From positions 688,001-752,000 of the forward strand of contig CP058647.1 of assembly GCA_014323545.1 (NCBI GenBank): a stretch of DNA of 64,000 nucleotides, given 5' to 3'. Below are positions 37,429-37,657 of this stretch, piece after piece. The notes beneath the pieces were generated by a model. That model saw only the letters and a list, made by a program, of their open reading frames with translations. It made no database searches and was not told where the DNA came from. This stretch comes from Hyphobacterium sp. CCMP332 (GTDB lineage Bacteria > Bacteroidota > Bacteroidia > Cytophagales > CCMP332). Numbering within the stretch: the first letter of the stretch is position 1; each line of letters starts with the position of its first letter. The translations under genes and the position numbers were made by a program.

Positions 37429-37436
37429 TAGATTTG
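37429..37436 (+). promoter_or_regulatory. Candidate -7 box of the tRNA-Arg locus
   Basis: TAGATTTG, followed by CATC, matches TAnnTTTG. It ends 10 nt before the broken tRNA copy and 102 nt before the intact tRNA-Arg, which itself has no such box just upstream. No TTG lies at the right -33 distance. Confidence 0.45.
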
Positions 37437-37446
37437 CATCATAAAT

Positions 37447-37499
37447 GCACCCGTAGTTCAACCCACCTTCGCCAAGGCTTCGGTGGGCAAGCTGGATAG
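37447..37499 (+). pseudogene. Broken tRNA-Arg 5' fragment with palindromic insert
   Basis: GCACCCGTAGTTCAA (37447-37461) and CTGGATAG (37492-37499) together reproduce the first 23 nt of the intact tRNA-Arg at 37539 with one change (T for C). They are separated by a 30-bp insert within the D-loop. After CTGGATAG the similarity ends, so it cannot fold as a tRNA. Even the bases before it (AT-rich, ending ATG-free AAAT) resemble those before the intact gene, consistent with a tandem duplication. Confidence 0.75.
37462..37487. repeat. Palindromic insert in the tRNA fragment
   Basis: CCCACC (37462-37467) and GGTGGG (37482-37487) form the outer stem, an inner GCC/GGC pair closes around AA, and TTC/TTC are unpaired between them. 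The 26-bp element plus CAAG is inserted between CAA and CTGGATAG of the tRNA sequence. It is far more GC-rich than its surroundings. It resembles REP-type short palindromes; no second copy was noticed in this window. Confidence 0.65.
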
Positions 37500-37538
37500 C
37501 TATATGAATTAGTGGGGTTGAAGATTATTAATTTATAT

Positions 37539-37612
37539 GCACCCGTAGCTCAACTGGATAGAGCGCTGGATTTCGGCTCCAGAGGTTGAGGGTTCGACTC
37601 CTTCCGGGTGTA
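37539..37612 (+). tRNA. tRNA-Arg (anticodon TCG)
   Basis: A 74-nt cloverleaf. The acceptor GCACCCG pairs with CGGGTGT (the first pair is G-U), discriminator A; CCA is not encoded. The anticodon stem CTGGA/TCCAG closes TTTCGGC, giving TCG. The T-arm contains GGGTTCGACTCC. A terminator follows 10 nt later. Confidence 0.96.
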
Positions 37613-37622
37613 CTTCTATTCA

Positions 37623-37657
37623 AAAACCGTTGATATCAATTCGGCGGTTTTTTTTTA
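37623..37657 (+). terminator. Terminator of tRNA-Arg
   Basis: AAAACCG (37623-37629) pairs with CGGTTTT (37645-37651), and the loop contains the palindrome TTGATATCAA. The stem runs into a tract of nine T, a typical intrinsic terminator. Confidence 0.8.

Follow-up and report, generated by a model that had tools for sequence, protein, structure and literature searches.

Broken tRNA copies and candidate minimal GIY-YIG elements at tRNA and RNase P RNA genes of Bacteroidota: a reading that starts from one tRNA-Arg locus

How does a tRNA gene come to be preceded by a broken copy of its own 5' end, itself interrupted by a small palindrome? This question is raised by tRNA-Arg(TCG) of Hyphobacterium sp. 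CCMP332, in the 64,000-nucleotide stretch of the genome analyzed here (the window), where all features of the locus lie on the forward strand. At 37447-37461, GCACCCGTAGTTCAA reproduces positions 1-15 of the tRNA with one change, as seen in the sequence and in self-copy tests, and the AT directly 5' of this fragment likewise matches the bases preceding the intact gene. A GC-rich hairpin insert of 30 bp, CCCACC..GGTGGG followed by CAAG, then occupies the D-loop (37462-37491), after which the tRNA resumes with CTGGATAG, positions 16-23 (37492-37499; sequence and two-piece test). In total, the fragment comprises the first 23 bases of tRNA-Arg, with one change, split after base 15. A spacer of 39 bp (37500-37538), too short for a nuclease ORF, leads to the intact gene (37539-37613, tRNA gene call), and a terminator-like stem with a T run can be read 3' of it (37622-37657). 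The box TAGATTTG (37429-37436) fits TAnnTTTG, which we take to be the -7-type promoter motif of Bacteroidota; no TAnnTTTG was found within 50 nt of the intact gene. A preliminary description of this DNA was right in reporting a split 5' fragment upstream of the intact tRNA and a promoter-like box only on its far side. The unit folds with an MFE of -26.2, and GTGGGGTTGAA in the spacer (37512-37522) can pair with TTCAACCCAC at the border between fragment and insert (37457-37466).

The resemblance between fragment and gene is specific. Within the window, the 16-mer GCACCCGTAGCTCAAC with up to three mismatches occurs only in the fragment and the intact gene, with 0.10 occurrences expected. A two-piece test, requiring a 5' piece no shorter than 14 nt and with no more than one mismatch and then, after a gap, an exact match to the next 8 tRNA bases, identified an upstream broken self copy at 4 of the 33 tRNAs of the genome, that of the window included, compared with 1 of 1012 swapped tRNA/flank pairs. 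Inspection of the 39-bp spacer by eye revealed no ORF between the two copies and no recognizable ORF remnant, a PF01541 search of the genome (G000) gave no match in the span of the window, and an NCBIfam search with nine window proteins returned nothing bearing on the tRNA-Arg unit. No tRNA-Arg(TCG) was found in the loci fetched from two same-family relatives, leaving no counterpart of this locus against which to align the similarity. In G222, a tRNA-Arg(TCG) has an ORF cassette downstream and, in addition, a 5' piece that lacks an ORF and is interrupted after TCAA, as in the window unit.

The preliminary description considered this arrangement rare and datable. No dating evidence is contained in the data, and rarity is contradicted by the genome itself. 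When the 600-nt flanks of the 33 RF00005 tRNA genes in the one-contig, 3.33-Mb genome were scanned with other tRNAs masked, 14 of the 33 showed a partial copy of themselves, as against 5/198 (upstream) and 4/198 (downstream) in swapped-tRNA controls. The same scan detected such copies at 10/37 and 13/24 tRNAs in two genomes of the same family and, in partial sets, at 2/11 (G063) and 3/11 (G020). At a stricter threshold (13) with all swapped pairs as controls, the own genome and the two same-family genomes gave 11/33, 7/37, and 10/24 vs 0.6-1.2%. At this threshold, the values for genomes of other families, sampled as 20 stretches each, were 4/26 (G176), 1/28 (G211), 0/22 (G177), and 1/28 (G149), with controls of 0.7-3.2%.

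Several features are shared by these broken copies. Upstream units mostly represent the 5' part of the tRNA and downstream units the 3' part, exceptions being, among others, the middle parts found upstream of Ser-TGA and Arg-CCT. Breakpoints fall in tRNA hairpin loops (D, anticodon, or T) in 75 of 127 cases, with 54.3 expected (p 1.6e-4, for edges that are not independent of one another), and in stems in 39 of 127. Tandem units are frequent; for example, tRNA-Pro(GGG) of the own genome (L028) is preceded by five fragments in a tandem array with 100-bp spacing, in which the reverse complement of the tRNA 5' end closes the units. Closed folds are formed by several upstream units, in which the tRNA 5' end pairs with a complementary stretch immediately before the intact gene. 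Most broken copies in the own genome lack an ORF, including the 209-bp tandem unit at Thr-TGT, as does a unit of only 56 bp at tRNA-Asp of G002. A filled and an empty tRNA site could be compared for ORF-less units only: two clear units and a degraded third lie between promoter and tRNA-Leu(TAG) in G002, and the site is empty in G001 of the same genus. The fMet units of these two genomes have retained the hairpin while both arms differ. TAnnTTTG occurs within 50 nt before the intact gene at 0/10 tRNAs with upstream units vs 13/23 others, and within 50 nt of the outer fragment at only 3/10, that of the window included; therefore, the units probably separate the promoter from the tRNA gene.

The hairpin inserts were also followed beyond the window. 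The preliminary description looked to further copies of the palindrome elsewhere in the genome, and these exist: the 3.33-Mb genome contains just two further matches to the core CTTCGCCAAGGCTTCG with at most one mismatch, of which the first lies within a broken tRNA-Leu copy and the second abuts a tRNA-Leu gene. A 17-mer of the insert with 2 mismatches added a single place, not near a listed tRNA. A second palindrome, CTGCCTGCCGNCAGGCAG, likewise occurs at 3 places, so that every place of the two palindromes tested is at a tRNA locus in the own genome (3/3 and 3/3). The idea of a high-copy dispersed repeat of the own genome was rejected on these counts. The insert belongs to the type CCCnCCTTCGCyrarGCTTCGGnGGGCAAG, the searched core of which is found in at least 117 stretches of genomes from many phyla and mostly away from tRNAs, 5 of 85 examined sites being within 300 nt of one. 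Members were seen in candidate phyla, Bacteroidota, PVC, Acidobacteria, and Proteobacteria (L187-L266 and further loci), and one locus, L226, contains six head-to-tail copies. The core sequences of this type were not found in the open-access literature. A long target-site duplication made by the palindrome was ruled out, as flanking direct repeats scoring at least 12 accompany 6/105 sites in other genomes and are no commoner than in same-contig controls (16/316), though commoner than with flanks swapped between contigs (5/627).

A CCTGCC..GGCAGG palindrome following CTGGATA recurs across three families in their Arg tRNAs, and hairpins resembling it are a recurrent feature of the Ser anticodon loop. 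TCCCGA..TCGGGA hairpins number 238 in the relative G004 vs 6, 9, and 15 in three genomes of the window's family; in G002, 9 of 15 listed places, two of which overlap, are near tRNAs as judged from their positions. At tRNA-Leu(CAG) of G002 (L136), repeated TCCCGA and TCGGGA arms form a nested hairpin resembling palindromes inserted into palindromes. In 20 x 12 kb plus the window, the density of simple hairpins near tRNAs was not clearly above that of other intergenic DNA, and most of the 17 intergenic hairpins look terminator-like by eye.

What distinguishes some of these loci is a protein-coding gene. At two tRNAs of the own genome, and also at loci in relatives, a small GIY-YIG ORF lies between the broken and the intact copy: tRNA-Arg(TCT) has fragment 1-22, the palindrome CCTGCCTGCCGGCAGGCAGG, the ORF, and the intact tRNA in this order, and at tRNA-Ser(TGA) a copy broken by three hairpins is followed by the ORF and the intact tRNA. 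Seven genomes yielded 53 PF01541 matches, and 30 loci from this search were examined: 17 of kind A, 7 of kind B (UPF0213-like), and 6 others (long proteins or unclassified). A tRNA is located within 420 nt at 15/17 kind-A loci, two tRNAs being counted twice as each is adjoined by two ORFs, and at 0/7 kind-B loci. Among the 14 loci of the kind-A set that were inspected, two pairs of which overlap, 10 have the intact tRNA on one side of the ORF and its broken copy on the other; three of the remaining 4 have fragments with the ORF not in between, and one has no fragment.

A broader survey covered 118 genomes of the phylum, each at least 90% complete, with a profile of the kind-A alignment A1. Matches at 1e-8 were obtained in 73/118 genomes, with up to 21 per genome; since kind B scores 42-59 bits with this profile, as against at least 78 for full-domain kind-A rows, this count also admits kind B. 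At 1e-18, a cut above every kind-B score seen, 52/118 genomes match. In the 30 loci taken from the best-scoring genomes, one each and two of them repeating loci of the seven-genome set, 27 hold a tRNA, and the ORF lies within 500 nt of it in 26/30, with a median gap of 25 nt. ORF and tRNA share the same strand in 27/27 loci, and a broken copy of the same tRNA lies beyond the ORF in 23/30. Of the three loci without a tRNA, one is at a contig end and two lie inside RNase P RNA. Elsewhere among the matches listed, G199:C34:6988-9766 carries eight tandem GIY-YIG ORF copies spaced about 365 bp apart. The number of ORFs as a predictor of the number of scars was not supported by G211, in which 11 profile matches (some perhaps kind B) were found, yet 1/28 tRNAs in the 20 stretches sampled has a broken self copy. 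G177 and G149 gave no nuclease-profile match at 1e-8.

The RNase P loci provide a second kind of target. In L352 and L361 (G200 and G211), the RNase P RNA gene contains the ORF close to its 5' end, within the loop of a long hairpin, in L361 between CCCAGCACATAACGTTCATTG and its complement. The flanks of the ORF in G200 match the gene of the congeneric G185, which is uninterrupted, giving a pair of filled and empty sites. The RNA gene is not duplicated here, and the ORF remains in the loop of a long stem; at tRNA loci, one copy is broken, mostly in a loop, while an intact copy persists beside it. Two further kind-A ORFs, L310 and L325 of the seven-genome set, have neither a tRNA nor RNase P RNA nearby and lie between inverted repeats of 12-14 bp. 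Flanking inverted repeats of the four kind-A ORFs away from tRNAs (the two in RNase P RNA, L310, and L325) score 24, 19, 12, and 14, and scores of at least 12 are reached by 4/294 shifted controls and 2/7 kind-B ORFs. The flanking inverted repeats of tRNA-linked ORFs are mostly terminators.

The kind-A ORFs of the seven-genome search match PF01541 over the Pfam cut-off. Y5, Y16, G18, R26, H30, and E62 are invariant in the 13 rows of A1; a conserved Tyr, a Tyr-x-Gly, an Arg, a His, and a Glu are the catalytic residues of GIY-YIG nucleases. A predicted kind-A model adopts the GIY-YIG fold (mean pLDDT 89.6), with UPF0213 (E 4.2e-4) and Slx1 (1.3e-3) as top Foldseek matches and I-TevI at E 0.22. 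Searches of NCBIfam and PHROGs with the nuclease returned weak matches only. A phage origin was rejected, as tblastn matches were weak (best E 1e-5, 39.7% identity; 2 and 10 records). The ORFs are under purifying selection, with a dN/dS of 0.15 in a Thr tandem pair; three other tandem pairs differ by only two to four changes apiece.

Groupings in the nuclease tree track tRNA isotype. Over 53 rows, counting kind B as "none" and including some tandem copies, the target labels require 22 changes vs 37.2 when shuffled (0/200 as low); with 39 labelled rows, one per locus and without "none", 18 changes are needed vs 26.8 (0/1000 as low). Rows from different families cluster together for Ser (eight rows, support 91) and for Arg (six rows from five loci, support 84), and kind B forms a separate clade. 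The tree has 77 columns only, and 29/50 inner branches lack resolution. The clustering by isotype could also stem from vertical descent.

On this evidence, it appears fairly likely that the window unit is an ORF-less member, or a decay product, of a family of minimal and probably selfish GIY-YIG elements. We adopt this reading because its anatomy, the position of its break, and its type of hairpin are common to the ORF-bearing cassettes; it has the layout of the family, with a broken copy of the same tRNA, a hairpin in a loop, and the intact tRNA on the same strand. That the unit formerly held an ORF is something we infer, and its absence is the main weakness of the reading. A complete element would consist of a GIY-YIG ORF of ~80-90 aa adjoining an essential structured RNA gene, usually with a second, broken copy of this gene that bears a stable hairpin, mostly in a loop (D, anticodon, variable, or T). 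In the likely mechanism, the nuclease would cut the RNA gene at a loop, and repair against the element-carrying copy, or a duplication started by the break, would then yield the broken copy, the ORF, and a complete copy, the host RNA surviving because the complete copy remains. The hairpin may mark an altered target that possibly can no longer be cut. Recombination between repeats would give rise to tandem arrays, and loss of the ORF to hairpin-broken stubs such as the window unit. In RNase P RNA, the ORF would occupy the loop of a long stem without duplication. Cleavage, homing or other mobility, the order of events, and transcription through the unit are putative and read from sequence.

This proposal competes with several other explanations. 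The preliminary description envisaged a palindrome that inserted after tandem duplication of the tRNA. A duplicated 5' piece is indeed broken by a palindrome; simple insertion of a dispersed palindrome is too simple an account, because at other loci a GIY-YIG nuclease gene is found within this architecture and because breakpoints favor tRNA hairpin loops. In its plain form, with tandem duplication, a dispersed palindrome entering the spare copy, and nuclease ORFs as later guests, such a history is unlikely. The tandem units are obvious, and the palindrome type is spread through many phyla mostly off tRNAs, both in its favor; however, the division into 5' parts upstream and 3' parts downstream, the restriction of both tested palindromes to tRNA loci in the own genome, direct repeats at the same-contig control level, and the joint presence of ORF and broken copy in 23/30 loci all weigh against it.

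In the classic attachment-site pattern, a restored tRNA is followed by a 3' tRNA fragment; the units could be relics of tRNA-targeting integrative elements, each a partial copy left where the copy brought by the element restored the gene. Given ORF-less units as short as 56 and 209 bp, near-identical tandem arrays (5 x 100 bp), hairpins inside the fragments, and a GIY-YIG nuclease as the ORF at many such sites, this origin is quite improbable. The closed folds of several upstream units and the fMet hairpin retained in G001 and G002 would also suit functional leader or trailer RNAs, acting as tRNA mimics or decoys and kept by selection. Such a role seems improbable for units that vary among tRNAs and genera, can be absent at an orthologous locus (Leu-TAG of G001), and, when downstream, lie beyond a terminator. 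The window fragment taken singly is short, as chance similarity or an assembly artefact would have it, an explanation rendered scarcely credible by the swapped-tRNA controls and the recurrence of the pattern in many independent genomes.

Returning to the element family as the preferred reading, a wider form of it is about evenly balanced between true and false: across the phylum, minimal GIY-YIG elements would colonize the loops of essential RNA genes, namely tRNAs and RNase P RNA, with one RNA per nuclease lineage. They would be tolerated because a full tRNA copy is restored or because the element stays in a removable loop, and recombination would leave arrays and stubs recording past visits. 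tRNA genes are familiar landing sites of large integrative elements; the elements proposed here span a few hundred bp, have one nuclease domain, and seem to reside in or next to tRNA and RNase P genes on the scale of a phylum. If confirmed, this would offer bacterial chromosomes a counterpart to phage SegB, account for broken tRNA copies and hairpins around tRNA genes, show how a nuclease can parasitize essential RNA genes without killing the cell, and open a testable route to changes in tRNA copy number.

Comparison with known systems helps to place the candidate elements. Bacterial rRNA intervening sequences are inserts that occupy a hairpin loop of a stable RNA and may be excised by RNase III. 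The RNase P insertions resemble them in position; unlike them, they concern RNase P RNA and contain a GIY-YIG ORF. REP/RAYT palindromes and Rickettsia palindromic elements are small palindromes inserted in genomes, with a GTAG-type tag and a RAYT gene as the hallmarks of REP elements. In contrast, the palindromes described here are tied to tRNA copies and a nuclease ORF, and the window insert ends in GGGCAAG, with no GTAG at its ends. Small GIY-YIG proteins of the UPF0213/Slx1 type (1zg2, 7cq2) are the closest solved folds and profile matches of kind A, whereas the UPF0213-like kind B falls in its own clade with 0/7 members beside tRNAs.

No description of GIY-YIG elements resident in bacterial tRNA or RNase P genes was found in the open-access literature, to which the search was directed, subscription papers being outside its scope; the tRNA passages of an article on the GIY-YIG superfamily (PMC1564403) contain none. 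According to two reports, SegB of phages T4 and T6 is a free-standing GIY-YIG homing endonuclease of the phage tRNA region (PMC13096335; PMC2988022), and in T6 a tRNA gene is part of the segment whose amplification SegB drives (PMC13096335). The present ORFs differ from SegB, which is described in phages, in being single-domain genes of bacterial genomes, and in that kind-A lineages tend to keep to one tRNA isotype or to RNase P RNA, in most cases accompanied by a copy broken by a hairpin or by a hairpin loop. They share with SegB a free-standing GIY-YIG gene beside tRNA genes and, as the tandem units suggest, tandem amplification of a tRNA segment. The amplification driven by SegB is the closest known behavior to that proposed for these elements.
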